A stretch of DNA of 33,467 nucleotides from NCBI GenBank assembly GCA_025457885.1, contig JALOTN010000014.1, positions 1-33,467 of the forward strand, given 5' to 3'. This DNA comes from Thermoplasmatota archaeon. GTDB lineage: Archaea > Thermoplasmatota > E2 > DHVEG-1. Below are positions 2,281-18,647 of the stretch, piece after piece. The notes beneath the pieces were generated by a model that was not told the origin of the DNA, made no database searches, and saw only the letters and a program-made list of their open reading frames with translations. Position numbers and translations under genes: made by a program. Each line of letters opens with the position of its first letter. Within the stretch, counting starts at the first letter, position 1.

Positions 2281-2320
2281 AATTTAAATACATACTGAGT
2301 GTTGTTTTAGGATTGGGGAT
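2281..2320 (+). promoter_or_regulatory. TATA box and ribosome binding region of the VCBS/PKD gene
   Basis: TTTAAATA at 2283-2290 is an archaeal-type TATA box. A start of transcription about 25 bases downstream falls near 2310. GGGG (2316-2319) lies just before ATG 2331. The box stands in the 90-base gap after the preceding gene, which suggests this gene has its own promoter. Confidence 0.5.
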
Positions 2321-2330
2321 ACTGATACTG

Positions 2331-4511
2331 ATGAAGAGTAAATTTGAAAGACACCTGGTTTTTTGTCTTGTCGCTGTCGTGTTTTTTGCCTCAATGACCT
2401 CGTTTTCTATGAGTTTTAGAATAGAACAAAGGAACACGAATGTACCATTAAGGACGATTACCTTTGTTGAGAAATCCACTGGGCTGCAGCCTCCAACAAT
2501 GGAAGGAGGAAACACAGAGTTGGAATTGGCAGATATTAATAATGATGGCAATCCAGATCTCATCAGTGTCGGTGATCATGGCAATCCGTATGTGAATACC
2601 GATGAGCATGGAATCATGGTGTGGTTGAACTCTGGTCAGGGAAGCTGGTCTGTGGTTCAGGTCGGAGAATTTGGGTACGGGGGGATCGAGGCAGGGGATC
2701 TCGATTTGGATGGGAATCTTGATGTCGTCTGGGGGATCCATCATGATTACAGCGGTGTTCAAGGTTTTGGTGATACGTTAATCGGGGCTGCCTTAGGAGA
2801 TGGTACGGGAGCGAATTGGATTCCATGGGCGACGGGTTTAGGGACTGGTGGGGAGGACTGGGGGATGTTTGAAACAGCTCTTGCTGATTTTGATTGTAAT
2901 GGTCGTCTTGATCTTGTCTCTCAATCATTTGGGTACGGTCAAGGGTATCATGTGTATGAAAATCATGGGAACGGGACATGGACGCAGCGATGGGTCATCA
3001 GTGATAATAACAATAATAATGATTTGGAGATCGGTGATTTCAACTCAGATGGGATCCCTGATTTTGCTGGGAACCGTGATGGCACTCATGTCTACTTCGG
3101 AGAGGGTAATTTTAATTTTACTTTGATGCAAAATGGTCTTCCCTCAGGACTCTGGAATGGCCTTGATTGTGGGGATATGAATAATGATGGATGGGATGAT
3201 ATTGTTCTAGGATACAGCTCCACAGGAATTAGATGTTACATCTATGATGGAGACAGCAGTGAGTGGGATACTGTTTCTACGGGTTTGCCAACAACGGGGA
3301 CGTACTATCCGCAGTTCGGTGATGTGGATGGTGATGGGAATCTGGATGTCGTCGGGTATGTTGGTCCGATGGGGTATGTCTATCTGGGTGATGGAAATGG
3401 AAATTGGGTCCTTGATGGGACGTTTACCATGACGTCTCCTGGAGATATCTCTGAGTTTCTTGTTGATGGTGATTTTGATCATGATGGTCGTGAGGATGTC
3501 ACAGTGATTGCTACATCGGGCTCCTGGCCAAGTGACCATAATGTCATGAAAGCGTTCTCACCCTGGGTTGAGCCAAGTGATCTAACGGTGCTGGTGCAAT
3601 CGCCACATGGCGGAGAGACATTCAGAAGCGGTTCCATTCGGATAATCCATTGGCTTTCTGCCGTCCCTGTTTCACAAGGGCAATCCAGTGTTGATATCCT
3701 GCTTTCCCGCAATGGTGTATCCGGGCCATGGGAGCCTCTGGCGACCGATATCCCTAACAATGGCCACTATCAATGGTTAATTGGTGCAGGTGGGTCTGAA
3801 TCCTGTCGCATCAAGGTAGTGGTGACGACATCCCAGGATTCAACCGTTGCCATTTCTGATTCTGATTTCGCCATCCTGGGGTTTGATGTGGATGCCCATG
3901 GCCCCTATTTTGGTAATCCTGGACAGGTGATTCAATTCACTGGTTCTGCAGATAATGGGAATCCCCCTTATGAGTTCCTCTGGGATTTCGGTGATGGGAT
4001 AACCTCGACTCAACAAAATCCCACACATAGCTATGCAAGTGAGGGAAACTATACAGTGATTTTGTCGGTGACGGACTCGACGGGTATGACTGTAAGTGAT
4101 ATGACTTGGGCGTTGATTGGGGGATCAAATGTTCCTCCAGGTACACCGGATGTTCAAGGACCTGCGAAAGGAAAGCCTCTCTCGAATTACAAAATTATGT
4201 TTGTTTCGACTGATCCTGATTTGGATATGTTGTTTTATTTTGTTGACTGGGGTGATAATACTACAAGTGGTTGGTTGGGACCATTCAGCTCTGGTCTCCA
4301 AGCATCAGCTGTACATAATTGGAGCGAAAAAGGGACGTACTCGGTGAAGGTCAAGGCAAAGGATGTTCATGGTGCGGAGAGCGACTGGGGAATGCTTTCG
4401 ATCAAGATACCGTTTTCCTCTGATTTGCCTGTGTTCCGGTTCCTCACATTGTTCTTTGAGCGTTTTCCGAATGCGTTTCCGTTGTTGCGATATGTCTGTG
4501 GATTGATTTAA
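2331..4511 (+). CDS. Secreted VCBS/FG-GAP repeat protein with PKD domains and aromatic C-terminal tail
   Basis: 726 residues, taking ATG 2331 over TTG 2313. Residues 1-25 are a signal peptide (VFCLVAVVFFASMTS). About 60-410 hold six or seven VCBS/FG-GAP repeats with calcium-binding-like loops such as DINNDGNPDL, DLDLDGNLDV, DFNSDGIPDF, DMNNDGWDDI and DVDGDGNLDV; these fold as a seven-bladed propeller in known families. About 417-517 is an Ig-like domain starting SPHGGETF. About 519-598 is a classical PKD domain (WDFGDG, HSY). About 601-695 is the PKD-like domain shared with the two upstream genes. Residues about 697-726 are the aromatic tail with FFERFPNAFPLLRY. Probably a surface-displayed binding protein. 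Repeated Asp-Gly codons make the DNA look repetitive around 3040-3480. Confidence 0.85.
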   Translation: MKSKFERHLVFCLVAVVFFASMTSFSMSFRIEQRNTNVPLRTITFVEKSTGLQPPTMEGGNTELELADINNDGNPDLISVGDHGNPYVNTDEHGIMVWLNSGQGSWSVVQVGEFGYGGIEAGDLDLDGNLDVVWGIHHDYSGVQGFGDTLIGAALGDGTGANWIPWATGLGTGGEDWGMFETALADFDCNGRLDLVSQSFGYGQGYHVYENHGNGTWTQRWVISDNNNNNDLEIGDFNSDGIPDFAGNRDGTHVYFGEGNFNFTLMQNGLPSGLWNGLDCGDMNNDGWDDIVLGYSSTGIRCYIYDGDSSEWDTVSTGLPTTGTYYPQFGDVDGDGNLDVVGYVGPMGYVYLGDGNGNWVLDGTFTMTSPGDISEFLVDGDFDHDGREDVTVIATSGSWPSDHNVMKAFSPWVEPSDLTVLVQSPHGGETFRSGSIRIIHWLSAVPVSQGQSSVDILLSRNGVSGPWEPLATDIPNNGHYQWLIGAGGSESCRIKVVVTTSQDSTVAISDSDFAILGFDVDAHGPYFGNPGQVIQFTGSADNGNPPYEFLWDFGDGITSTQQNPTHSYASEGNYTVILSVTDSTGMTVSDMTWALIGGSNVPPGTPDVQGPAKGKPLSNYKIMFVSTDPDLDMLFYFVDWGDNTTSGWLGPFSSGLQASAVHNWSEKGTYSVKVKAKDVHGAESDWGMLSIKIPFSSDLPVFRFLTLFFERFPNAFPLLRYVCGLI

Positions 4512-4587: not shown

Positions 4588-5067
4588 TTACTTTTCTAAC
4601 GTCACACCACGTTGATTCTGATAGGTCCCAGATCGTTCATGATACAGCGCTTTTGGTATCTGCTCGAGATATTCAAAAACAATCTGACAGAAACGATCTC
4701 CTATCGGAATCTCCACTTCCTTATCACTCGCGTTAAAACACCCGAACGTCAGCGTCCCATGAAACCCTGCATCCACCTTCCCAAAACTAGCCATTATCCC
4801 TTTCCTTGCGTAGCTAGAACGAATCCATAACTGCGATGTTATCTCAGAACCCATCTTGATGAATTCCTTTGTGCTTATCGCAAACCAGGTAAGAGGAGGA
4901 ATCACCGCGACACCCTCCTTGATATGTTGATCGGTGGTTCGGAGATAGACTTCATCAATAGAGAGATCATATCCATTTGGGGTCAGATGCTTCTGGATGA
5001 ACGGCTCAATCCCCAGTTTATCACTTTCAAGAGCCTGCTCGATGTCGATATCAGAGAGAACAGCCAT
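4588..5067 (-). CDS. dut: Archaeal-type dUTPase (dCTP deaminase fold family)
   Basis: 159 residues. Hydrolyses dUTP to dUMP and pyrophosphate, keeping uracil out of DNA and supplying dTMP synthesis. Family marks are NGYDLSIDEVYL (31-42), IRSSYARKG (82-90), KVDAGFHG (97-104) and YQNQRGVTL at the C-terminus. Asp99 in the VDAG motif is the residue used for water activation in dUTPases and in bifunctional DCD-DUT enzymes. The Glu needed for cytosine deamination, expected after GFHGTLTF, is Gly109. I therefore prefer the archaeal dUTPase subfamily over dCTP deaminase. Last gene of a three-gene operon behind two cyclophilins, with a 17-base gap. Confidence 0.82.
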   Translation of the reverse strand: MAVLSDIDIEQALESDKLGIEPFIQKHLTPNGYDLSIDEVYLRTTDQHIKEGVAVIPPLTWFAISTKEFIKMGSEITSQLWIRSSYARKGIMASFGKVDAGFHGTLTFGCFNASDKEVEIPIGDRFCQIVFEYLEQIPKALYHERSGTYQNQRGVTLEK

Positions 5068-5084
5068 AAAATCACTTCAACATT

Positions 5085-5567
5085 TTATGAAATGGTAATT
5101 TTTTTGATGATGACGTCCGAAGCGGGTTTATCATTTCGACCGGTTTTTACCTGGGAGATCGCATCGACAATCTCCAAGCCCTCCACGACCATCCCGAACA
5201 CAGGATGTGCACTGGAATATGGTTTCTTATCAAAGTCAAGGTATATGTTGTCCACGATATTGATGAACCATTGACTCCCCCCTGTGTTTGGTCCACAGTT
5301 TGCCATCGCAATCGTCCCACGCACGTTACTGAGGTCTTTATGGAACTCATCCTTGATAGTGTACCCAGGACCACCAGTACCGGTTCCCTTAGGACACCCA
5401 CCCTGGATCATGAACTGCGGGATGACTCGATGGAAGATCAAACCATTGTAGAAACCTTGATTGACGAGTTTAACAAAATTCCCGGTGGTCAATGGTGCTT
5501 TATCTTCATAGAGTTCAATGATGAATCTGCCTTTTGTTGTCTCAAAAATCGCTTTTCTGTTTGCCAT
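5085..5567 (-). CDS. Cytosolic cyclophilin-type peptidyl-prolyl isomerase
   Basis: 160 residues. Catalyses cis-trans isomerisation of prolyl bonds in folding proteins. Cyclophilin motifs are [13 protein letters not shown] (45-57, catalytic Arg47 and core Phe52, Met53, Gln55), then [11 protein letters not shown] and [10 protein letters not shown]. No signal peptide or TM segment, so cytoplasmic. Start at ATG 5567, preceded by GGAG 8-11 bases upstream. The reading frame stays open upstream to 5825, but that part is antisense-like, overlaps the next cyclophilin and lacks family similarity. It lies 16 bases after the membrane-anchored cyclophilin and 17 before dut, so the three are probably one transcript. 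Confidence 0.9.
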
Positions 5568-5583
5568 GATAACACATCTCCGG

Positions 5584-6240
5584 TTAAGAACTGAGGATGA
5601 TGATATTGTTGATGATGATATCGGTATCTGGTTTTCCTGTTCCATCACCACCATCCGCATGTGGTTGGGCTGCAATGGTCTGGACAACGCCCATTCCTTC
5701 GATGACGACCCCGAAGGCAGCATAGTTCCCATCAAGGAAACTTTGGGCTCCGTCACAGATGAAAAACTCATTCGATCCACCGACTTTTGCTCCGGTGCTT
5801 GCCATAGAGATTGCACCATCGACATGTTTTACATCACTGGTTTCAAAGGGGATGTTCCCGTATGGACTTGTTTTTCGTGTGCCATTCGGGTAATATCCTC
5901 CAGTTTGAATCATGAAATTATCTCCGATTCGATGGAAGATTAGCCCATTGTAAAAACCATCGTTGACGAGGGTGACGAAATTCTCGACGGTCTCTGGCAT
6001 CTTATCCTGATACAGCTCTACTTTGAAGGTGCCAAAGCTTGTATCGAAAAGCGCGATTGGATTTCCTTCAGGTTCGTTGTTGTTCGATGGTGAAAGCAGA
6101 TTCTGAGAGACCACGACAGCGACAACAGCAACGATGATAACAATAAGGATCAATCCCAGATAGATCCATTTACGTGATGCTTTCGATGAATGCTGAGGTG
6201 GATTATCTACTCGCTTTCTTGGTTGATCGATTGGACTCAT
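5584..6240 (-). CDS. Membrane-anchored cyclophilin-type peptidyl-prolyl isomerase
   Basis: 218 residues from ATG 6240; a GTG at 6255 is possible, but GTGGGGAA there reads better as the ribosome binding site. Residues about 30-46 form one TM anchor ([19 protein letters not shown]) after a basic N-terminus (RKRV, SRKW), so the enzyme domain should face outside. The cyclophilin domain runs from about residue 60 to the end: [18 protein letters not shown] carries the catalytic Arg, and [10 protein letters not shown] is the usual core. The stretch normally read as GSQFFI is GSNEFFI, so the conserved Gln is replaced with one extra residue. Likely helps fold the secreted proteins abundant in this window. 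First gene of the cyclophilin-cyclophilin-dut operon. Confidence 0.88.
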
Positions 6241-6329: not shown

Positions 6330-9191
6330 TTATTGGATGGTGAAGGCATCCCCCTCAGATTGAATCCTGTTGAATGCGGTGTCGGTTGCGACGATCCAGA
6401 ATCCGATGGATTGGCCTGAAGAAAACTGACCAAGTTCAACACCAAAGAGCGGAGCATTGGATTGATTGATGAGGGGGTCTTCCTCGTGACGGCTTTGAAT
6501 CGGAGACTGACCATATCGATACAGCTGATGGGAGGTGGTGGTGTTTCCGTCATAACAATACAGCACAATGCTTTGGATGCTGAATGGTCCGGTTGAACTT
6601 ACGTTTGCATAAAGAATGACATTACTGGTATTCGTCGGATTCTTTGGAGTATAAAAAATGGTGTGAATTTGGGGTCCCCAGCTATGGCCGCTTTCATTTA
6701 GAACGATAGAACGTGCCTGAAGGCAGGTGAGTTGTTGCGAATCAAATGCGTTCACAGTGATGGTGTAATCTCCAAGAGGAAGTCCGGTGACATCCCAAGA
6801 GAGCGACCACGTGGTTGTGCCAGAAGCTACTCTGGTTTCATTGTTGAGGGTAACTTCCACCCGGTCTATGCCGACGTTATCCAAACTATGACCGGTAATG
6901 TTTAGGAGGTCTCCCTCAAGTATCGCTCCATCCACAGGGGCATCAATAGTGAGGGTGGGAGGAGTTCCGTCGATCAGAAGGATGGTACATTCATCAGAGG
7001 AGACTGAGGTTGCAGTGATCGTATGACCACCAAGGATGGCTCCCGAGGTGTTCCATGCGTACGACCATTCTCCATCTATCACTGGGCAATCAACCGTGGT
7101 TGGTTCATGGTCAAAGGAAAGAGTAATCATATCATTAGTCGCAACCCCAGAGATACACACAGTATCACCAACAGTGGAGATGGGTTGTTCAAAAACCGAT
7201 GTGTCAGGGCCTACAATCTGCACGATGTCCTGGACGGTCTGAACAGAAGCAGTGACTGAAAAATCGATACTCGCATGGGTGTTTCGATTGTAATTACGGA
7301 AAATAATATACCAGTCTTTCTCCTGGGTTGAGACGGACTGAGTCATCTCATTCCCGTTCCAATAACTATAACACACGAATGATTTACCTCCCATGTAACG
7401 CTGGAGGTTTTCTTCATCAACAATGAAACCATCAATGGAGGTAAACGGTTCGTATCTACCGATTCCTTCGTTGGTAAAATGTTTCTGCAATTGGTATCCA
7501 TCGGTGGCTATCGAGAGAGTAAATTGGCAGTCACCAACGGGGGCATCCGCACGGGTTATCAACTGGGGTTTCTGGGAAATATCCAGAAGGGTAATGGTAT
7601 AAGATTTATCCAATCCGCTGTTCAGAGTCCGTAGGGTGTTATGTCGTGCGAGCTGCCAGGGTTTCTTCAAATTCCCTTCCTGAATCAAGAACGTATAATT
7701 GAGGTTCTTTCCTAGTTCAAAGCTACATTGTCCCCTCGAATCAGTATAATTCCAGATGGCAATGGTAAATCCCGTGATGCTATCAGGTATCTGATCAATC
7801 CGTCCTTCAATCTTGTCAAACAGGAGAGCAAGGAGTTTTCCTTTCAGGATCTCGGGAAGTTTATCCCAGAGGCTCTGGAGTTTTTCACTGAATAGGTTTT
7901 TATAAAACGTGATATCCTTCGGGCCTTTCACCAGGACGATGACTCGTGCTCCATCGACCGGCTGTAAGAAGAGGTCTTGTACTTTGAAATCAATGGTGAT
8001 ACGATCTTCTTCATGGATGTATCGTTCTGTGTCCTGGATGATTGTTCCATCACCTCGCCATTGGTAAATAGCGGACATATCCTTCCCCCACCCATAGGCG
8101 TATATATCTGGTTCATCCACAGCACCTCCCGTATCACTCCACCAGTTGTCGTTTTCATGCCAGCCTCGTTCATAAAACTCCCTCCACACATGATCCTCAC
8201 CAACGTTACTTGCTGCAATGGAGGGAACAAGCATGGCTCGCAGCCCAGCTACCGCAATTTTTTGCAGCTCCCCGCACCAGCCGTTATGCTCATGGGCGAT
8301 GATAGACGCTTGCCCAGGCCTGTCGCCTATCGCTTGGTTTGGGACGGTTTTCCCAATCCAATAACTCACTGCCTCGATCGCAGTTGGATGCTCATTGATA
8401 CACACACTCCATAGTCGTTGTCCTGGTTGATAATACGATTGGCAATCCCAGAGGTACTGAATGGCTGAGAGTTTCTCTTTGAGTAATGGATAACCGATGT
8501 CATTGTGGTTGGTCAGATAATTCCGCCACAGAGGTCCATACACCGCGTCGATTTCCTCATTGGTGATCTTCGGATGGACCACATACCAGTAATAAATTTC
8601 TGGGGGGAGTATGACAGAGGTTTCTGTTCCGTTTTCAAGGACACGGTAGCGGAGGGTAGAAGAATAATTCCCCATTCCATCATTATCATCTACAATTTCT
8701 GCATAGGATATCCATTGGTCGATGGTATACAATGACTCGACATTTTCTTTAAGGAGCCCTGCCGGGGGGACTCTTCCGATGGGACAGCAGGCGATGGAGA
8801 ATGCGATTTCATCTGTGTATTGTGTACTCGCATTTAGAAGAACAACGGCATAGCTATCTTGCTCGTCCAGATTCTGAAATTGACTGGTGAGTCGTGGTTG
8901 GATCCATCGGGGTGATTTTGCGATGGCAGCAATCACAGTCTCGGATAAACCTGTAGCTAACGGTTCGAGTTCTTGTGGAAGTAACGTGAGATTGTGAGAA
9001 TCAAATCTGATGATATAATCAGAGTTTGGGGGAAGTTCGATGTGTCGTGTGACTTTTGACACCAATAATGCCTCAGAAGTTGGTGAGGAGTAAGAGGTGG
9101 TAACTGCACCAAGAACTCCTGGGAAAAGAAGAAGGAAACATGTTGCATGTGCAAAGAGTGTTTTTATGATGGTGCTAACTTTTATCGGAAT
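6330..9191 (-). CDS. Secreted transglutaminase-like (papain-fold) protein with C-terminal Ig-like domains; likely ATT start
   Basis: About 953 residues if translation starts at ATT 9191. That codon sits 7 bases behind AAGGAGGT (9206-9199) and opens a clean signal peptide (KVSTIIKTLFAHATCFLLLFPGV, split by the n-region). The nearest usual start, ATG 9275, adds 28 residues, has no ribosome binding site and lies upstream of a TATA-like box (9231-9240). The transglutaminase core is at about 300-350: Cys306 in NGWCGELQ, His334 in DHVWREFY and Asp348 in GWHEND, so the triad is complete. Later parts are beta-rich, with an Ig-like domain starting at TPPTLTIDAPVDG and a last domain near PKNPTNTSNV. 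Probably an extracellular protease or amide-forming enzyme. Follows the flippase-like gene but appears to have its own promoter. Confidence 0.75.
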   Translation of the reverse strand: MPIKVSTIIKTLFAHATCFLLLFPGVLGAVTTSYSSPTSEALLVSKVTRHIELPPNSDYIIRFDSHNLTLLPQELEPLATGLSETVIAAIAKSPRWIQPRLTSQFQNLDEQDSYAVVLLNASTQYTDEIAFSIACCPIGRVPPAGLLKENVESLYTIDQWISYAEIVDDNDGMGNYSSTLRYRVLENGTETSVILPPEIYYWYVVHPKITNEEIDAVYGPLWRNYLTNHNDIGYPLLKEKLSAIQYLWDCQSYYQPGQRLWSVCINEHPTAIEAVSYWIGKTVPNQAIGDRPGQASIIAHEHNGWCGELQKIAVAGLRAMLVPSIAASNVGEDHVWREFYERGWHENDNWWSDTGGAVDEPDIYAYGWGKDMSAIYQWRGDGTIIQDTERYIHEEDRITIDFKVQDLFLQPVDGARVIVLVKGPKDITFYKNLFSEKLQSLWDKLPEILKGKLLALLFDKIEGRIDQIPDSITGFTIAIWNYTDSRGQCSFELGKNLNYTFLIQEGNLKKPWQLARHNTLRTLNSGLDKSYTITLLDISQKPQLITRADAPVGDCQFTLSIATDGYQLQKHFTNEGIGRYEPFTSIDGFIVDEENLQRYMGGKSFVCYSYWNGNEMTQSVSTQEKDWYIIFRNYNRNTHASIDFSVTASVQTVQDIVQIVGPDTSVFEQPISTVGDTVCISGVATNDMITLSFDHEPTTVDCPVIDGEWSYAWNTSGAILGGHTITATSVSSDECTILLIDGTPPTLTIDAPVDGAILEGDLLNITGHSLDNVGIDRVEVTLNNETRVASGTTTWSLSWDVTGLPLGDYTITVNAFDSQQLTCLQARSIVLNESGHSWGPQIHTIFYTPKNPTNTSNVILYANVSSTGPFSIQSIVLYCYDGNTTTSHQLYRYGQSPIQSRHEEDPLINQSNAPLFGVELGQFSSGQSIGFWIVATDTAFNRIQSEGDAFTIQ

Positions 9192-10354: not shown

Positions 10355-11506
10355 CTAGGCATTTGCGGTGAGATTCGAAGGGTCAAGCGGGAGCGGGGGC
10401 TGCAGGTTCTTCAATCGTCGTAAGGCCAAAAGCTTGTCACGTGGACCTAGTCTTGCTTCTTCAATTGCATCTGCGAGTGTTTGAATGGACTGTGCATAGG
10501 TGGGGAGATCCACAGGTTGAGGGACTCCGTCTTTTCCCCCATGGGCAAAGGTGTACCTGATCGGGTCCTCCCAGGAGGGGTGCTCCCCATAAATCAGATC
10601 AGAGATTAACGCTAAGGCTCGGATCGTCCGTGAACCGATTCCTGGTTGCGATAACAGGTCCTCATAACAGGTGGGATGAACATCATAAATCTCCTTCATC
10701 TTTCGCCAGTTAATCGACCGCGGCATGTCCAGGGTACGATAAGAACAACCCTTGTTGATGGGAGATATCCATTCATCCAATGTCCTCTGATGGTGATGGC
10801 GAGTGAGATTCGCCCAATCACGTTGGAGATGCACGGGATGGTCATTGACCAAGTCAACCGAGATTTTTTGTGTCGCACTACTTTGTTTTGCGGTCATGTT
10901 CAACACTGACTGCTGACGACTGTCACCGATAATGGTCGAATGAGGTTCACAAATGAAGCTTTGTACCTCATCGGAGAGCCAATGGTACCGGCGAGCATAT
11001 CCTGTCTCATCGTTCATACCCTGCTGAATCACTGCCCATTTCTTCCGTTCAGAAAGAACAAACACATGATGATACAGGATATGGCCATCCTGGATCGCAC
11101 AGTTATCAACCTTTGCTGCCATACGACTACAGTACTGCAATCGATCGATCAGCGATGACGAAAGATTATATTGTTCGCAAGATGCTTTTATTTCAGCAAG
11201 GGTGTTTCGTGATGCGTTTCCTTTTCCGCCACAGAGGACAACTCCAAGGTTTAATGGATTGAGTGCTTCTTTCAAAGCTCCGCAGGTAACAGTAGTCGTA
11301 CCAGATGAATGCCAATCATATCCCAGCACACAGGAAAACGCCTGAAACCAGAAGGGATCAGAGAGACGTCGTAAGAACTCATCAGACCCATACTCATCGA
11401 TAAGAATCTCAGAGACACCTTTGGAAAGAGCGACCATGCGCTGGAATAACCATCGTGGTGCTTTTCCGCCATGTAATGGTAAGTTTGCGACACCTGTTTT
11501 TCCCAT
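10355..11506 (-). CDS. DUF763 family protein with helix-hairpin-helix segment
   Basis: 383 residues from ATG 11506 (MGKTGVANLPLHGGKAP), which is where DUF763 proteins normally begin. The frame stays open to 11659, but that extension runs into the divergent promoter. Conserved patches are the N-terminal TGVANLPLHGGKAPRWLF, then TTTVTCGALKEAL and GVVLCGGKGNASR. A helix-hairpin-helix (SQPGIGSRTIRALALISDLI, about 287-306) suggests nucleic-acid contact. Biochemical function is not established as far as I know; DNA or RNA binding is inference from the hairpin. Divergent from the LuxE-like gene, with a 173-base gap. Confidence 0.82.
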   Translation of the reverse strand: MGKTGVANLPLHGGKAPRWLFQRMVALSKGVSEILIDEYGSDEFLRRLSDPFWFQAFSCVLGYDWHSSGTTTVTCGALKEALNPLNLGVVLCGGKGNASRNTLAEIKASCEQYNLSSSLIDRLQYCSRMAAKVDNCAIQDGHILYHHVFVLSERKKWAVIQQGMNDETGYARRYHWLSDEVQSFICEPHSTIIGDSRQQSVLNMTAKQSSATQKISVDLVNDHPVHLQRDWANLTRHHHQRTLDEWISPINKGCSYRTLDMPRSINWRKMKEIYDVHPTCYEDLLSQPGIGSRTIRALALISDLIYGEHPSWEDPIRYTFAHGGKDGVPQPVDLPTYAQSIQTLADAIEEARLGPRDKLLALRRLKNLQPPLPLDPSNLTANA

Positions 11507-11679: not shown

Positions 11680-13059
11680 ATGACAACACGAGATTTCACT
11701 ACTTATATGAAACAATTAAATGAGCAGCTTAGAAATTATTTTCCATCAAAAGACGTCTGGACACCAGCAGACGACGCCATCTACAAAACAGATGATCTCT
11801 TCCGCGTTCCCCTAAAAGAAGCCCATGAGATGCAGCTGAAATCCATAAAACACACCTTCACCTACCAATATAACAATAATAAGATATATCAAAACTTCTG
11901 TAAAGAGAGAAATTTCTCCCCTTCGGATATTAACACCAACGATGATTTGGAGAAAATCCCGCTTATTCCTGCCACCTTTTACAAAGATTATCCATCTGGA
12001 CGGGATTTTGCTACCTGGCTGGGAAACATTTTCACAGGACAACTTCCTAAGATCATGATCCCTCAGAAACACCCGACATATGATGAAGTCATCAACGCCT
12101 TTAACAAAGCTGGAATGGCGGTTGCTTATAGCAGTGGAACTAGCGGTCGGCATACATTCATCCCCCGGGATCAACGTACCTATTATACCTCTGAGTACGC
12201 TGCAGCAAAATCAGTCATTACTATGGTCTATCCCTTATGGGAGCCCAGTCTGTACGGATATTTATTGATGCCGAACCCAAAGAAAACGAACGTGTACGCT
12301 GGAAAAGTCTGCACCATTTATTTTGATGCGATTCAGGATGTGAAAGTCGCAATAGACCGAGAGATTACCACGGAACTCATCCAAATGACCATGACCAATC
12401 AGAAGGGCATTAAAAGCTCTATCGTCAAATTGGCTACAAAACGACAGTCAATAAAAATGATCGATGAAATCATCCGCTGGCTGGAATACCAAGAGAAAAC
12501 GAAGAATAAAATCGCAATTGTCGGCGCTCCGTTCATACTCTCATTTGTGATGAAAAAACTAGAAAAAGAAGGCCGTGCTTTTAATTTCGGAGAACGAGGT
12601 GGCGTCGCTACAGGTGGCGGATGGAAAGCCTATGAAGGCGTCCGTGTCCCGGTCGTTGATTTCCGTAAACAAGTCGAAAAAATCCTGGGTATCCCAGAGA
12701 AATTCTGTGTCGATCTCTACGGCATGGTTGAGGGAAATGGCTGGCTAACGCATTGCCCAGAGGGCCACTACCTTCATGAACCCTATAATTACTTCAAAGG
12801 AGTAGTCCTTGATGCAGAAAATAAACCAATGGGATATGGTGAATGGGGACGCTATGCATTCCTGGATGCAGCCGCGTTCAGTTATCCTGGATTCCTCATG
12901 TCCGGGGACCAGGTTCGAAGGCTGGAGCATTGCCCGGTCTGTGACCGTCCTGGTCCGGTCCTAGAACCAGAGATTAAACGAGCCGCGGGTGCAGAAGTCC
13001 GCGGATGTGCTGAGGAAGTCAGACGGATGCTTTCTGCGGACCTTAGCCAGGACTCGTAA
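11680..13059 (+). CDS. LuxE-like acyl-protein synthetase (acyl-adenylating)
   Basis: 459 residues. LuxE enzymes activate a carboxylic acid with ATP as acyl-AMP and pass the acyl group to a protein cysteine; in luminous bacteria the partner is the reductase LuxC. The ATP-binding signature YSSGTSG is at 150-156, with ATGGGWK (310-316) and DLYGMVEG (345-352) as the later adenylate-forming motifs. Near the C-terminus are HCPEGHY (Cys359), HCPVCDRPG (Cys418, Cys421) and Cys443, candidates for acyl transfer or metal binding. No LuxC or LuxD gene is nearby. Instead a transglutaminase-like cysteine enzyme starts 4 bases after the stop and an Nramp-like transporter follows. Its acid substrate is unknown. 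Confidence 0.82.
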   Translation: MTTRDFTTYMKQLNEQLRNYFPSKDVWTPADDAIYKTDDLFRVPLKEAHEMQLKSIKHTFTYQYNNNKIYQNFCKERNFSPSDINTNDDLEKIPLIPATFYKDYPSGRDFATWLGNIFTGQLPKIMIPQKHPTYDEVINAFNKAGMAVAYSSGTSGRHTFIPRDQRTYYTSEYAAAKSVITMVYPLWEPSLYGYLLMPNPKKTNVYAGKVCTIYFDAIQDVKVAIDREITTELIQMTMTNQKGIKSSIVKLATKRQSIKMIDEIIRWLEYQEKTKNKIAIVGAPFILSFVMKKLEKEGRAFNFGERGGVATGGGWKAYEGVRVPVVDFRKQVEKILGIPEKFCVDLYGMVEGNGWLTHCPEGHYLHEPYNYFKGVVLDAENKPMGYGEWGRYAFLDAAAFSYPGFLMSGDQVRRLEHCPVCDRPGPVLEPEIKRAAGAEVRGCAEEVRRMLSADLSQDS

Positions 13060-13063
13060 CCTC

Positions 13064-14044
13064 ATGTTCACCCCCTGGGAAATCAAACAAAAAGAAATGG
13101 TCCCACCCCTTCATATGCTTCAGATGAACATTGGGGGTGTTTTTTTACTTCTGAAAATGCTCTTATTCAATCTCGGTACCTTTAAGATGCTGAAAAATCA
13201 GAAAAAAAACGTGTATAATAGACCGACACCCACGTATTCAATACCAGCATACACCCCGGAAATGAAACACTGTGTTTCAGAGGATAAATACCTCAGGCCC
13301 ACCTTGTTCTGTGATTGTCGAGCCCCAGAGGTCATCGCGTTAGCTCATCAGCTGGGGGCGTATCAAAAAACAGACCGAGACTATGCGGAGGCTGTCTTTG
13401 AGTTTGCAAAAAGAAAAATCATTCTTGAGCAACATCCAATCGATGATGTGAAAAGCATTTTACATCGGGGGACGGGGACGTGTTTGCATAAAATTACTGT
13501 CTTTATCGCTTTATGCAGAGCCGGGGGGTTACCAGCGCGTTACAAGTTTTTCGCTCTTACGTTATTAGATGAATGGGCGGCACCTGCTCTTGATCATGCC
13601 CCGCTGTTGAAACAATGGTCTGATGCAATGGGATATTTCCTGCTTCATGGCGCAGGAGAGGTGTATCTTGATGGGAAATGGATTACTGCAGACGTTGGAG
13701 CAGAACCAGCACGTCAGGCGTCCTCCTGGATGCCGATCACGAAACTGGGGGAAGACGGGGCGGGACTCTGGTTATTCCCGATTCCTGGTTCTACTATTAT
13801 CCGGGAATCCATCCCTCTCGGGTTGGGGATCCCCTCAAGAATCCTTATGAACCATCTGGTGCCAAACTCTGTGGCAGGATTGAATATTGGGATTTTAGAG
13901 CAAATCGAAAAAGGAAAAAAAATCATCGCAGACGCTGGTGGAGAAGTTGCCTATGACAGTGAGGCACGAAAGAAACACAAGAAAGAAATGATGAAAAATG
14001 AGTTGTTAAAAGAACATGCAAACATCATCTTTGAGGCAGAGTAA
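13064..14044 (+). CDS. Transglutaminase-like enzyme, paralogue 1 (Cys/His/Asp)
   Basis: 326 residues from ATG 13064. The frame is open back to 12989, but residue 1 here aligns with residue 1 of the paralogue at 16405, and the extension would overlap the LuxE-like gene. A hydrophobic patch (about 22-39, NIGGVFLLLKMLLFNLG) follows a short N-terminus. No cleavable signal is evident, so the protein is probably cytoplasmic or membrane-associated. YLRPTLFCDCRAPEV (76-90) opens the enzyme region. The papain-like triad reads Cys140 (GTGTCLHK), His195 (HGAGEVYLDGKW) and Asp210 (TADVG). The fold covers transglutaminases, proteases and N-acyltransferases, and chemistry cannot be assigned. Coupled to the LuxE-like gene (4-base gap) and the Nramp-like gene (0-base gap), so it may accept an activated acyl group; this is inference. 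Confidence 0.8.
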   Translation: MFTPWEIKQKEMVPPLHMLQMNIGGVFLLLKMLLFNLGTFKMLKNQKKNVYNRPTPTYSIPAYTPEMKHCVSEDKYLRPTLFCDCRAPEVIALAHQLGAYQKTDRDYAEAVFEFAKRKIILEQHPIDDVKSILHRGTGTCLHKITVFIALCRAGGLPARYKFFALTLLDEWAAPALDHAPLLKQWSDAMGYFLLHGAGEVYLDGKWITADVGAEPARQASSWMPITKLGEDGAGLWLFPIPGSTIIRESIPLGLGIPSRILMNHLVPNSVAGLNIGILEQIEKGKKIIADAGGEVAYDSEARKKHKKEMMKNELLKEHANIIFEAE

Positions 14045-15337
14045 ATGGAGAAAAAACCTCGTAACTATTTGAGGTATCTCAAGTATTTTGGTCCAGGGGC
14101 GGTCGTTGCCTGTATGACCATTGGTGCTGGTGATATCGTCCTTGCACCACGCATTGGTGCGTGGGCGGTTCCTTTGTATTCCGCCTTATGGGTCATCACC
14201 TTTGCGATGATCACCAAAGGACTCACCGCGTATCTCGCCACACGATATTCGTTATTATCCGGGGAGCATATTATGACCTTGTTCTCCCGGGTTCGACCCT
14301 ATGGATGGATCAACATCTTTTCGCTTGTCACCGGATTCCTCCTCCTCCCCTTCCTGATTGCGACGTTTTTAACGATTCTTGGGAATGTATTTACCTTGTT
14401 CACCGGAACAGGGGATTTCATCATCTGGGGAGTCAGCCTTGGTCTGTTCATCGCTCTTTTTGGAGCACTTAGCTCCTATAAAATCATTGAACGGATCCAA
14501 CTTGTTTTTGTGATTTTTCTCTGCTTTGGAGCCATTGTTGCAGTGGCGGTCGTCAATCCGGATTGGTTCGCGATACTCAAAGGGTTATTTACCCCACAAG
14601 TCCCCACGATAGCAACCTGGGTTACTTCAGAGGACATCATCGCATTCCCCGTCATGTTCCAGCTTGCCGCTATCTATGGAACCATGCATGGCACCTACGC
14701 AGACATCACCGCCTACATCTCTTGGTGGATTTTACGTGTCCAGGAAAAAAAAGTCGCATTAAAATCGGAGATCATGACAGGTGTAAAACTCGACCTGTTC
14801 ATCTCATTCACAATTGTTGCGATTTTTATGGTCGCGTTTCTTGCTGCTGGTGTCGTGATTCTCGGGCAACGACAGATAGTACCAAACGGTGTCGATCTTA
14901 TATCAGCCCAGCAGAGCATCTATACTCAAATCAGCCCCATTGTCGGGAATGTTATCTACCCCATTGCAATGGTTGGGGTGATCGCAGGCTCGATTTATGC
15001 AGGGATGGATGCTGTACCCCGCATGATTAAAGCATGGCTAGATCCTCTCAGCAAACGGGTCCAAAAAATTTCCTTCAAACGATTCCAATTATACATCGTC
15101 CTTTACCTTCTGTTCACCAGCGTACCTCTGATGTTTTTCGAAAAACCCATCATTCTTATGACCATTTATTTACTCCTCACCGGCGTGTTTGGGATGTGGC
15201 TGCTTGGATGGGGCGCCCTGTGGGCAAACCAGAAAAAACTCCCCAAGGAACAACGACTTGGAAAAACAAAGATGACACTCTTTGTGATCAGTAACATCGC
15301 CATCACCGTGTTCGTCCTTTCGATATTTATCCTGTGA
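14045..15337 (+). CDS. Nramp-like membrane transporter without the canonical metal motif
   Basis: 430 residues, about 11 TM segments, LeuT-type Nramp superfamily. TM1 begins YFGPGAVVACMTIGAGD (14-30). In true Nramp metal transporters the unwound part of TM1 carries DPGN, whose Asp and Asn bind Mn or Fe. Here it is IGAGD. The TM6 region, normally MPH, reads GTMHGTYADIT. Loss of the standard ligands suggests the substrate is not an ordinary divalent metal, as in other Nramp-related branches. The ATG directly follows the stop of the transglutaminase-like gene, which implies translational coupling. The last 11 bases overlap the convergent dehydrogenase gene. Confidence 0.78.
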   Translation: MEKKPRNYLRYLKYFGPGAVVACMTIGAGDIVLAPRIGAWAVPLYSALWVITFAMITKGLTAYLATRYSLLSGEHIMTLFSRVRPYGWINIFSLVTGFLLLPFLIATFLTILGNVFTLFTGTGDFIIWGVSLGLFIALFGALSSYKIIERIQLVFVIFLCFGAIVAVAVVNPDWFAILKGLFTPQVPTIATWVTSEDIIAFPVMFQLAAIYGTMHGTYADITAYISWWILRVQEKKVALKSEIMTGVKLDLFISFTIVAIFMVAFLAAGVVILGQRQIVPNGVDLISAQQSIYTQISPIVGNVIYPIAMVGVIAGSIYAGMDAVPRMIKAWLDPLSKRVQKISFKRFQLYIVLYLLFTSVPLMFFEKPIILMTIYLLLTGVFGMWLLGWGALWANQKKLPKEQRLGKTKMTLFVISNIAITVFVLSIFIL

Positions 15338-16325
15338 GCAGACTCTGCTCATTTAAGGTTTTATACCAGGAAACGGAATCTGTGATGGTTTCCAGAACCC
15401 TGTAGCGAGGGACGTATTTCAATTCCTGTGCCGCTTTGGAACTATCAATCCGACGGGACGTGCCCATCACCCGCACCTTATGACGAGTGAAGGGCGGATT
15501 CTTTCTTCTAGCAAGCATCCAGAATCCTTCCACCAGACTGGCAAGGACATATGCTTGGAGATACGACCGGCACTTCTCAGGTGCTGAAAGCCTAAGCTGC
15601 TCCGCGAAAGATCTCATCAACAACCGCGGCGTACTATCAAAGCTTTTCACATTATACGGCTGATTATCAGAGATAGAAGATTCACCAGCAAGTCGAAGAC
15701 ATCGGGCAACATCACGACCATCAGAAAGTGAAATCTGCTGATTCCCATCACCGATGTAAAACAACCGTTTTCGTTGCAACGCATGAATAAGAAACAAGGT
15801 GATGAGATGATCACGCGGTCCGAGAACAACCGGGGAACGGACTGCAGACACGGCGATATCATGATTCATTCCATACCCCCAGAGCAGTGCTTCTGCAGCT
15901 AGTTTCGACTCACCATAGTTTAACGTCGGATGTTTCGGAAAACTCTCTTGGAGGGGCTGTCGTGTTTTTGGAAAACCATACACGGCAGCAGAACTCATAA
16001 AAACAAACCGCGGTACTTTGTTTACGACACACGCATCAAGGAGGTTTCTAGTCCCATCGACATTCACCTCAAAAAAGGTCTTTCTTGGGCCCCAATCCCG
16101 CGGGAGCGCCGCAATATGGTATACGACATCTACGTATTGACAAGCCCGCACCAGGGATTCCCGATCGGTCAGATCCCCCATAACAGGAGATATCGGTTTT
16201 CCCTCAAGAAACCGAGGATTACTCGATGTCCTTTGTAACACTCGTACGGTATATCCCTGGCTCGACAACTCATCCACCAGATGACTTCCAATAAACCCAG
16301 TTCCACCAGTGACCAAAGCCAGCAT
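15327..16325 (-). CDS. NAD(P)-dependent epimerase/dehydrogenase, 3beta-HSD-like (extended SDR)
   Basis: 332 residues from ATG 16325, placing the Rossmann glycine motif VTGGTGFIGSHL (5-16) at the usual N-terminal position; the frame is open upstream to 16442, but that overlaps the divergent gene. Other marks are GDLTDRESL, HIAALPRDWGP, FFEVNVDGTRNLLDA, the active-site Ser in FMSSAAVYG and the YxxxK pair in NYGESK. The DWGP and NVDGTRNLL texture is that of the 3beta-hydroxysteroid dehydrogenase/isomerase branch, which also contains dehydrogenases for acyl- or polyprenyl-derived and sugar substrates. Substrate unknown. Overlaps the convergent Nramp-like gene by 11 bases and starts 79 bases from the divergent paralogue 2. 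Confidence 0.83.
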   Translation of the reverse strand: MLALVTGGTGFIGSHLVDELSSQGYTVRVLQRTSSNPRFLEGKPISPVMGDLTDRESLVRACQYVDVVYHIAALPRDWGPRKTFFEVNVDGTRNLLDACVVNKVPRFVFMSSAAVYGFPKTRQPLQESFPKHPTLNYGESKLAAEALLWGYGMNHDIAVSAVRSPVVLGPRDHLITLFLIHALQRKRLFYIGDGNQQISLSDGRDVARCLRLAGESSISDNQPYNVKSFDSTPRLLMRSFAEQLRLSAPEKCRSYLQAYVLASLVEGFWMLARRKNPPFTRHKVRVMGTSRRIDSSKAAQELKYVPRYRVLETITDSVSWYKTLNEQSLLTG

Positions 16326-16404
16326 GCAACCACGAAACAGTTCTTGGCTAAAAAAGCCCTTTGGAAAAGAATATATGGTACCTTCCTTTTTCGTACCGAC
16401 TAAT

Positions 16405-17382
16405 ATGACCAGTTTTCGCGAGATGAAAGACAAGGAATACATCCCCCATGGGACCTACCTGAAACTGCTGATTGGCGGTGCTCTTTCTTTAAGTAAAGTG
16501 TTAATGTCCAATCCTAGTGATCTGAGAAAACTCCGCACAATCCAAGCCTCAGAGGAACGATACATCAGACCAAAACGTCCCTATGAACTCCTACCGTATA
16601 AGGAAGGAATGCGATGTGGCGCCACTACGGAGAAATACCTAAGACCCACCCTGTATTGTAACCCATGCGCTCCTGAGGTTGTTGCCCTTGCTCATCAGCT
16701 TGGAGCATTTCAAAAGACCGACTATGAATATGCAAAAGCAGCGTTTGAATTCGTCAAAGAAAAACTTGATTTAGAAATCTGTGGGATGGATTCTGTTGAG
16801 CAAACGATCCGCCGTGGGACAGGAACCTGTTTTCATTTAATCTCGGTCTACATCGCCTTGTGTCGCTGCGCGGGTATAAAAGCACGGTACAAGACATTTG
16901 CGATGAACATGATTCAACAATGGTATGATACCATGGTAACACCAGATCCTTTGGTTAAAAAATGGTACGATCAAATGGGATTCTTCATGATGGAAGGAGA
17001 AGGAGAGGCATTCATCGATGGAAAATGGATCCCAGCCCATGTCGGTCCTACTGCAGAACGACAAGCAGCAGCTAGTATCCCCATAACGCATTTTGGGGAA
17101 GGCTCTCTTGGCATCTGGTTCTTTGCTTTACCTGGGACTACCATGAATATGGAATCAATTCCCTATGGGTTAGGGTTAGGATCTAGACTATTACAAAAAC
17201 TCGCTCCCGGGTCAATGGAACGCGTCAATATCAGCATTCAACGTCAGAATCAAATCGGAAAAAAAGTAATCGAAGATGCTGGCGGCAGAGAAGCCTATGA
17301 CGCAATGGCACGAAAAAAACGTGCAGCACAATCACCAAAACTAGATTTATCTGACAAAAAAGGAATAGTTTTTGGAGAGTAG
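16405..17382 (+). CDS. Transglutaminase-like protein, paralogue 2 (triad changed to Cys/Glu/His)
   Basis: 325 residues from ATG 16405. Aligns end to end with paralogue 1, including the hydrophobic patch (KLLIGGALSLSKVL), EKYLRPTLYCNPCAPEV, ALAHQLGAFQKTD and the nucleophile region RGTGTCFHLISVYIALC (Cys142). The frame is open to 16309, but the extension lacks a counterpart in paralogue 1 and overlaps the divergent gene. The catalytic His position is Glu197 (MMEGEGEAFIDGKW) and the Asp position is His212 (WIPAHVG). So this copy is either inactive, works with a rearranged triad, or acts as a partner of paralogue 1. The MFS gene follows 5 bases later, so the two are co-transcribed. Confidence 0.8.
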   Translation: MTSFREMKDKEYIPHGTYLKLLIGGALSLSKVLMSNPSDLRKLRTIQASEERYIRPKRPYELLPYKEGMRCGATTEKYLRPTLYCNPCAPEVVALAHQLGAFQKTDYEYAKAAFEFVKEKLDLEICGMDSVEQTIRRGTGTCFHLISVYIALCRCAGIKARYKTFAMNMIQQWYDTMVTPDPLVKKWYDQMGFFMMEGEGEAFIDGKWIPAHVGPTAERQAAASIPITHFGEGSLGIWFFALPGTTMNMESIPYGLGLGSRLLQKLAPGSMERVNISIQRQNQIGKKVIEDAGGREAYDAMARKKRAAQSPKLDLSDKKGIVFGE

Positions 17383-17387
17383 TACCA

Positions 17388-18647
17388 TTGGATAAAACAA
17401 TGCAACCAAAACCAGCTAGTTTTATTAAACCAAGATCGAGACGATATATCATCTACCTTGTTCTGGTCATGGGGATTGTCGCAATCATGGATCAATATCT
17501 CTCCATGGTCCCCATCACCTACATGAACTCCATTCTCGATGAATATGGTGTCACCGCCTCGCAGTTCGAATGGTGGGAGGCACTCTATTTGATTCCCACG
17601 TTTTTCATATTTGCTCTCAACGGGCTCGTTGACATTATTGGAAGGAAATTTTCCATCCTTGTGTTGATTCTCATCATGGGATTTTCCTCTCTTGGAATCG
17701 TGTTGTTCACCCCGACGTTCCATTTCTTCATGATCTTTTACTCTATTGTTACCTTTACGACTGTGTCGAACATGTGGGCAATCCCCATCAGCGAAGAATC
17801 TCCTGCCACGAAACGAGCGAAACTCAGCTCGCTGGTATATGTCATTGGCTTGTTCCCACTCTCAGCGATCATCCCGTTATATGTCATTCCTAGCCTTGGA
17901 TGGAAATGGATGTATGGTATCATGTTTTTCTTTATGATACCCGTACTCGTCCTCTGGGTATTCATGAAGGAAACCGGGAGATACGAAGAAATAAAAGAGG
18001 AGCGGAAATCAGGGAAGTTGAAAAAACATTTCTTTGGACTTGGGTCGATTAATCGATCGGACATCAAATACATCATTTTTTCGGCATTCATCTGGATGTG
18101 CTGGTTGATCAACTCGCTGCTGATCATCCGATGGATGGGGTATTATTTCATGGAGATCCACGGGTACGCTCGAAGCGAATGGCTTATGGTGTTCCTCGCA
18201 TCAGGCGTGATGATGATCATTGGTGGAATCAGCAGTGGAGTTGTGATGGATAGGATTGGTCGAAAAATTGGCTTTATCATTGGAGCGGCAGGTTTTACGT
18301 TTTCCTTGTTTTTAATGGCATTTGGACCGGTGGCATTCCTTCCTATCTCCGGAGCACTCACAGGGTTCTTCATCGCATTCTCCTACGCCTGGGTGATCGT
18401 ATATATCCCAGAGATTTTCCCAACAGAACGCAGAGGTGCCTGCCTTGGGTGGACCACGACTGTCGCCCGTATATCCTATATCGTCGGACCAGTGATTGCC
18501 GCAGTGATGTTGGAGACGAATCCTACTATGGAATGGTTCTGGGTTGTCGGTGCTCTTCTGATGATTCTCGCTATCATCGTTGTTCTCCTGTTCCACCCGT
18601 TTGAGACGAAGGTAAAAGAACTCGAGGAAATCGAAGTTAGCCGATAA
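17388..18647 (+). CDS. Major facilitator superfamily transporter
   Basis: 419 residues with 12 TM segments. MFS signature loops appear after TM2 (NGLVDIIGRK) and TM8 (GVVMDRIGRKIG), with PEIFPTERRGACLG near TM10-11, typical of the sugar and organic-acid porter branch. A basic central loop (about 195-215, EEIKEERKSGKLKK) separates the halves. Start set at TTG 17388, because GGAGAG at 17374-17379 is spaced for it; ATG 17400 is the alternative and would lie about 20 bases away. Substrate unknown. Operon partner of transglutaminase-like paralogue 2, so it may export or import the compound made or used by this locus. Confidence 0.85.
   Translation: MDKTMQPKPASFIKPRSRRYIIYLVLVMGIVAIMDQYLSMVPITYMNSILDEYGVTASQFEWWEALYLIPTFFIFALNGLVDIIGRKFSILVLILIMGFSSLGIVLFTPTFHFFMIFYSIVTFTTVSNMWAIPISEESPATKRAKLSSLVYVIGLFPLSAIIPLYVIPSLGWKWMYGIMFFFMIPVLVLWVFMKETGRYEEIKEERKSGKLKKHFFGLGSINRSDIKYIIFSAFIWMCWLINSLLIIRWMGYYFMEIHGYARSEWLMVFLASGVMMIIGGISSGVVMDRIGRKIGFIIGAAGFTFSLFLMAFGPVAFLPISGALTGFFIAFSYAWVIVYIPEIFPTERRGACLGWTTTVARISYIVGPVIAAVMLETNPTMEWFWVVGALLMILAIIVVLLFHPFETKVKELEEIEVSR

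Follow-up and report, generated by a model that had tools for sequence, protein, structure and literature searches.

A condensation enzyme of the transglutaminase (TG) fold, AdmF of andrimid synthesis, was reportedly described by Fortin in 2007. In the LuxC-LuxE fatty acid reductase of bioluminescent bacteria, the acyl transfer site of P. phosphoreum LuxE is Cys364, and a cysteine of LuxC next receives the acyl group from it, according to PMC8301110. Here, we describe a locus in a 33,467-nucleotide stretch of DNA (the window), contig C2 in the draft genome of an archaeon (2.07 Mb). In this locus, a LuxE-type acyl-activating enzyme is paired with a TG-fold protein (TG1) instead of LuxC, and a second TG protein (TG2) is encoded in the same block. 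That LuxE and TG form the two-gene core of the locus is well supported, and we assign a probability of about 0.5 to the reading that they are partners in a single acyl-transfer system making amides.

The window LuxE matches the P. phosphoreum LuxE of PDB entry 7xc6 (E 1.1e-15), and the likeness extends over both its N-terminal and its C-terminal part and includes the cysteine that carries the acyl group and the GGGWK region. Its Cys443 aligns with Cys364 of chain 7xc6_E, the last cysteine of the P. phosphoreum protein. In an alignment of 14 LuxE sequences Cys443 is invariant, as are the SGTxG motif, Asp410 and others, and in a larger set of 41 archaeal rows the acyl-site cysteine is present in all 40 that reach the column, in TG-paired and LuxC-paired proteins alike. 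The NCBIfam equivalog model for long-chain-fatty-acid-protein ligase LuxE (NF052244) scores 74.8 bits, far below its cut-off of 550. The 14 sequences also share an extra invariant set, Cys359, His366, Cys418 and Cys421, of which the three cysteines lack counterparts in the alignment with bacterial LuxE; our guess is that this set may be a metal site.

Occurrence surveys covered 389 genomes of the phylum, plasmids and viral contigs. We searched the genomes with two profiles of 14 sequences each, A1 for TG (E<=1e-20) and A2 for LuxE (E<=1e-60), the latter including two members of the LuxC-type clade described below, and scored a pair as adjacent if LuxE lay within 250 bases upstream of TG on the same strand; match counts include fragments, with all rows kept. 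The TG family was found in 60/389 genomes and LuxE in 64/389. All 60 TG genomes also carry LuxE, and the LuxE proteins of the four genomes without TG (G014, G016, G017 and G034) are mostly of the 38-41% identity class, which corresponds to the LuxC-type clade. LuxE lies directly upstream of 93 of the 127 TG matches, spread over 54 genomes, and 93 of the 128 LuxE matches have TG directly downstream. The order LuxE-TG, on whose recurrence in relatives the earlier note had staked its proposal, thus does recur. Among the 61 TG genes in the loci that we fetched, 44 adjoin LuxE; of the other 17, seven, mostly second TG copies, have a more distant LuxE at 470-4900 bases upstream, also on the same strand, and two lie less than 300 bases from a contig end. 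The pairing extends to family f38, where LuxE and TG stand side by side in 7/7 genomes with a TG match. All four f38 genomes tested carry mcrA and are thus methanogens, from which we infer that f38 corresponds to Methanomassiliicoccales; we take the phylum to be Thermoplasmatota.

The surroundings of the pair differ from genome to genome and include two-component regulators, a Mut7-C protein, a radical SAM protein, deoxyhypusine synthase, a C25 peptidase and phosphofructokinase, among others; the LuxE-TG pair itself was the sole constant across the surroundings compared. A contig scan with one query sequence returned only two close relatives, "Euryarchaeota archaeon isolate bin_19" and "uncultured archaeon isolate LFW-68_2" (L088 and L089). 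At one locus (L083 6699-12717, genome G040), three LuxE genes and one TG gene stand in a row and are followed by an Nramp-like gene. TG paralogues without LuxE in two other loci (L102, TG at 4590-5591; L104, TG at 7981-8988) have a conserved neighbour set in common, a translation gene cluster; among its members in L104 are eIF6, L31e of the ribosome and a tRNA synthetase of class I.

The two proteins have also diverged together. In a set of 44 adjacent pairs, drawn from 33 genomes, pairwise LuxE distances correlated with TG distances at r=0.885, a value reached in 0/2000 free permutations. Eight genomes hold two or three pairs each, so that TG partners can be swapped among paralogues within a genome while the species tree is kept; in such within-genome shuffles r averaged 0.41, and again 0/2000 reached 0.885. 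LuxE and TG have therefore moved through evolution as fixed couples. Together with the recurrent order and the invariance of both active-site cysteines, this bears out the earlier suggestion that LuxE and the TG-fold protein act as a unit.

A Pfam scan of the open reading frames (ORFs) around the block found no LuxC. Among 44 genomes tested, 15 gave LuxC matches, nine at E<1e-50 and six, all methanogens, near 1e-31. For the 42 of these tests that concern TG genomes, the match was strong in eight, weaker in six and absent in 28. Among these 28, G004 encodes a LuxC-cluster protein cut by a contig end (L049) and should hence be counted as a LuxC carrier; several of the remainder are 97-99% complete. 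In the genomes that lack LuxC, the paired LuxE cannot depend on it. A distinct LuxE clade adjoins LuxC in the same phylum, which shows that LuxE has exchanged partners. In G017, for example, LuxC lies on the same contig as LuxE, within ~600 bases; the LuxE of G014 also falls in the LuxC-type clade, yet that genome gave no LuxC match. The earlier description of the locus as one without LuxC therefore holds for the block and for the whole genomes of most lineages, but not for the genome of the window itself, in which LuxC stands beside a LuxE on contig C15.

That second locus (L068 7237-12883, minus strand) is an operon of LuxC, SCP2, LuxE, SCP2 and a GlcD-like FAD/4Fe-4S protein, the SCP2 and FAD/Fe-S family names being taken from its counterpart in L048. 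The LuxC-SCP2-LuxE arrangement is conserved, recurring in L048 and L049 and in part in L055. Its LuxE is related to that of the window and keeps the acyl-carrying cysteine; unlike the window pair, the operon has LuxC, two SCP2 proteins and the FAD/Fe-S protein, and no TG. We regard it as an archaeal acyl-reductase system in its own right, with proteins of the sterol carrier type.

The TG proteins themselves fall into two forms, both of which are present in the window. The PF01841 match of TG1 spans model positions 2-107 of 108 and includes a Cys140, His195, Asp210 triad, with a spacing of the His and Asp motifs that is canonical for the transglutaminase-like superfamily. In TG2 the match covers only positions 2-75 of 108, ending before the His/Asp half, and in place of the Cys-His-Asp triad the protein reads Cys142-Glu197-His212, a change that the earlier note had overlooked. 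Across 61 TG proteins the cysteine is kept in all, while the other two positions are His-Asp in 34, His-Glu in 1, Glu-His in 18, Glu-Asn in 3 and Glu-Val in 5. All 26 Glu-type proteins, which are spread over five of the phylum's families (f1, f2, f7, f10 and f38), form one clade (support 97/85), indicating one ancient split. Repeated independent triad switches were considered and rejected, as the tree needs a single His-to-Glu change; the coupling of Glu with the missing Asp is likewise a single event and not convergence. We also considered an N-terminal membrane anchor and rejected it, with a mean hydropathy of 1.6 reached in just 2/61 proteins.

TG2 is probably active. In three genomes of the same genus (G001, G004 and G008), LuxE is followed by TG2 and the MFS transporter, with TG1 and the Nramp-like gene absent from the stretch, which leaves TG2 as the sole TG neighbour of LuxE there. 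Exchanged triads of this kind have precedents described in PMC10318531, in the Cys-Asp-His (CDH) triad of a Streptomyces microbial transglutaminase and in Bacillus Tgl, where Glu replaces His. TG2 resembles the former in that an acid occupies the place of the His and a His that of the Asp, and the latter in that the acid is Glu; the comparison is by described triads, and TG2 differs in having Glu and in sitting within an otherwise Cys-His-Asp family. As both of the known enzymes are transglutaminases, the analogy favours transfer over hydrolysis for TG, although it does not prove it.

The most economical reading of these data is that TG replaces LuxC, as acceptor of the acyl group from LuxE and then as its donor to an amine. 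LuxE would activate a carboxylic acid with ATP and move the acyl group onto its own C-terminal Cys443, as at Cys364 of bacterial LuxE. From there the group would pass to Cys140 of TG, which would stand in for the LuxC cysteine of bioluminescence, and TG would hand it to an amine to give an amide, as AdmF does with carrier-bound acyl groups. AdmF shares the TG fold and the use of an acyl thioester for an amide, but draws on acyl and aminoacyl carrier proteins belonging to an assembly line, whereas here the donor would be LuxE; the two are likened by description only. We put at somewhat below even odds the more specific proposal that an ATP-driven LuxE protein, and not coenzyme A (CoA) or a carrier protein, brings the acyl group to a TG-fold transferase whose family split into two ancient mirrored forms (Cys-His-Asp and Cys-Glu-His), with methanogen copies that have no His at either position.

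Several observations weigh against this mechanism. No LuxE lies within 250 bases upstream of 34/127 TG matches, some of which are at contig ends or are second copies, and eight of the 61 fetched TG genes, not at a stretch end and including those of L102 and L104, have no LuxE anywhere in their stretch. In the methanogen TG proteins the third position is Asn or Val, so that the classic positions hold no His. No gene for an acyl carrier protein, a substrate or an amine acceptor was linked to the pair; a scan of ten ORFs around the block revealed no carrier protein, with small ORFs only partly covered. AlphaFold2 models had a mean pLDDT (predicted local distance difference test) of 37.8 for TG1 (6 sequences) and 36.3 for LuxE (3 sequences), which makes their active-site geometry unusable. 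The TG fold also occurs in peptidases and amidases, so that hydrolysis is possible.

The main rival is in fact a hydrolase that supplies LuxE with acids: TG would be a peptidase, amidase or deacylase that frees an acid from an amide for activation by LuxE, the two forming a catabolic pair in protein-degrading archaea. The full Cys-His-Asp triad of TG1, like that of papain-fold hydrolases, is consistent with such a role, and the papain-like fold is widely hydrolytic, as PMC10318531 describes. The Glu-type clade (26/61), however, lacks the canonical His and is still paired with LuxE, with switched triads known from transglutaminases, and LuxE would still require an acyl acceptor besides LuxC; we consider a hydrolase unlikely, if the strongest competitor. 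Slightly less probable again is that LuxE is a PaaK-kind acyl-CoA ligase and that TG serves a structural purpose or modifies proteins, for example by acylation or cross-linking, with no thioester relay. The N-terminal part of LuxE does match PaaK and F390 synthetase models weakly, but Cys443 and its surroundings are conserved as in true LuxE, and CoA ligases are not known to need an equivalent of this cysteine. On the TG side, this alternative draws on bacterial TG enzymes that modify proteins, as PMC10318531 also reports.

Very improbable, by comparison, is that the block forms a biosynthetic operon whose short-chain dehydrogenase/reductase (SDR) stands in for LuxC, turning the acyl group into an aldehyde or alcohol by reduction. 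The SDR has a weak match to the thioester-reductase model TIGR01746 (E 4.6e-15), but its gene is on the opposite strand, which means that the six-gene block is not one operon, and it occurs in just 5/41 clustered stretches (cluster C10), the LuxE-TG pair persisting without it. The SDR is an optional neighbour of the LuxE-TG pair.

ORFs and Pfam matches agree with the layout given in the earlier note, including the gene positions, the 4-base gap between LuxE and TG1, the 0-base gap between TG1 and the Nramp-like gene, and the presence of a second TG paralogue (46% identical to TG1) and a second transporter (table). The ORF of the latter begins 5 bases after the end of TG2.

Features of the LuxE-TG locus (window coordinates)
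Feature	Position	Strand	Details
LuxE-type acyl-activating enzyme	11680..13059	+	459 aa; stop codon 13057-13059; PF04443 80.7 bits (cut-off 24.9)
LuxE Cys443 codon	13006..13008	+	Aligned in 7xc6_E with Cys364, which carries the acyl group in P. phosphoreum LuxE
TG1, transglutaminase-fold protein	13064..14044	+	326 aa; ATG at 13064; PF01841 41.7 bits (cut-off 23)
TG1 Cys140 codon	13481..13483	+	Column is Cys in 61/61 TG proteins
Nramp-like transporter, optional local partner	14045..15337	+	PF01566 38 bits (cut-off 29.8)
Extended SDR dehydrogenase/epimerase, optional	15327..16325	-	332 aa; ORF 15327-16442, likely start 16325; PF01370 156 bits
TG2, TG1 paralogue with switched active site Cys142-Glu197-His212	16405..17382	+	325 aa; PF01841 42.3 bits
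MFS transporter, optional local partner	17388..18647 (ATG 17400)	+	PF07690 102.7 bits

The idea that the six genes work as one functional block found no support in comparison with relatives. Both transporters and the SDR differ between relatives, the SDR gene runs on the opposite strand, and we rejected a single six-gene pathway. Within the window's own family, an Nramp-like or MFS gene often comes after TG; in other genera, the Nramp-like gene is followed by a ~1090-aa repeat-domain protein (cluster C30). A string search found DPGN and MPH, the signature motifs of NRAMP metal transporters, in none of eight Nramp-like family members, although the window protein scores above the PF01566 cut-off. 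The label "3beta-HSD-like" for the SDR names one of several matches (101 bits), but is not specific, as the Epimerase model PF01370 scores better (156 bits); the best NCBIfam model, HpnA, reaches 140 bits against a cut-off of 367.65. Upstream, a DUF763 gene (10355-11506, minus strand, likely start 11506) is divergent from LuxE with ~170 bases between them, and recurs in four other stretches (cluster C9). Two large adjacent plus-strand ORFs at 309-2240 and 2313-4511 belong to one sequence cluster (C5).

Outside the archaeal genomes, the plasmid relatives of TG are general TG proteins, the best 10 of 38 showing 25-28% identity over about half the length. Two plasmid LuxE loci were inspected: the one in Chloroflexota adjoins an acyl-CoA reductase, and the one in Priestia adjoins a phosphopantetheine-binding protein and lies near a fatty acyl-AMP ligase. 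Viral contigs gave two weak matches. One of them, on contig L110, was rejected as a relative, its domain being by eye an unrelated TG-like one, and PHROGs held no match for LuxE, TG1 or TG2. We found no report of a LuxE-transglutaminase pairing in the literature searched, in which subscription journals are sparsely covered.

With this pair LuxE, known mostly from bioluminescence, gains a second partner. Archaeal membranes are not built from fatty acids, and the retention of a multi-copy acyl-activating system in many archaea of the phylum, methanogens included, therefore points to an as yet unknown metabolite or protein modification. As some of the carriers in the phylum are methanogens, a cultured host may exist. 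The occurrence of the pair in many sediment archaea and some methanogens suggests an undescribed route for attaching acyl groups to amines.

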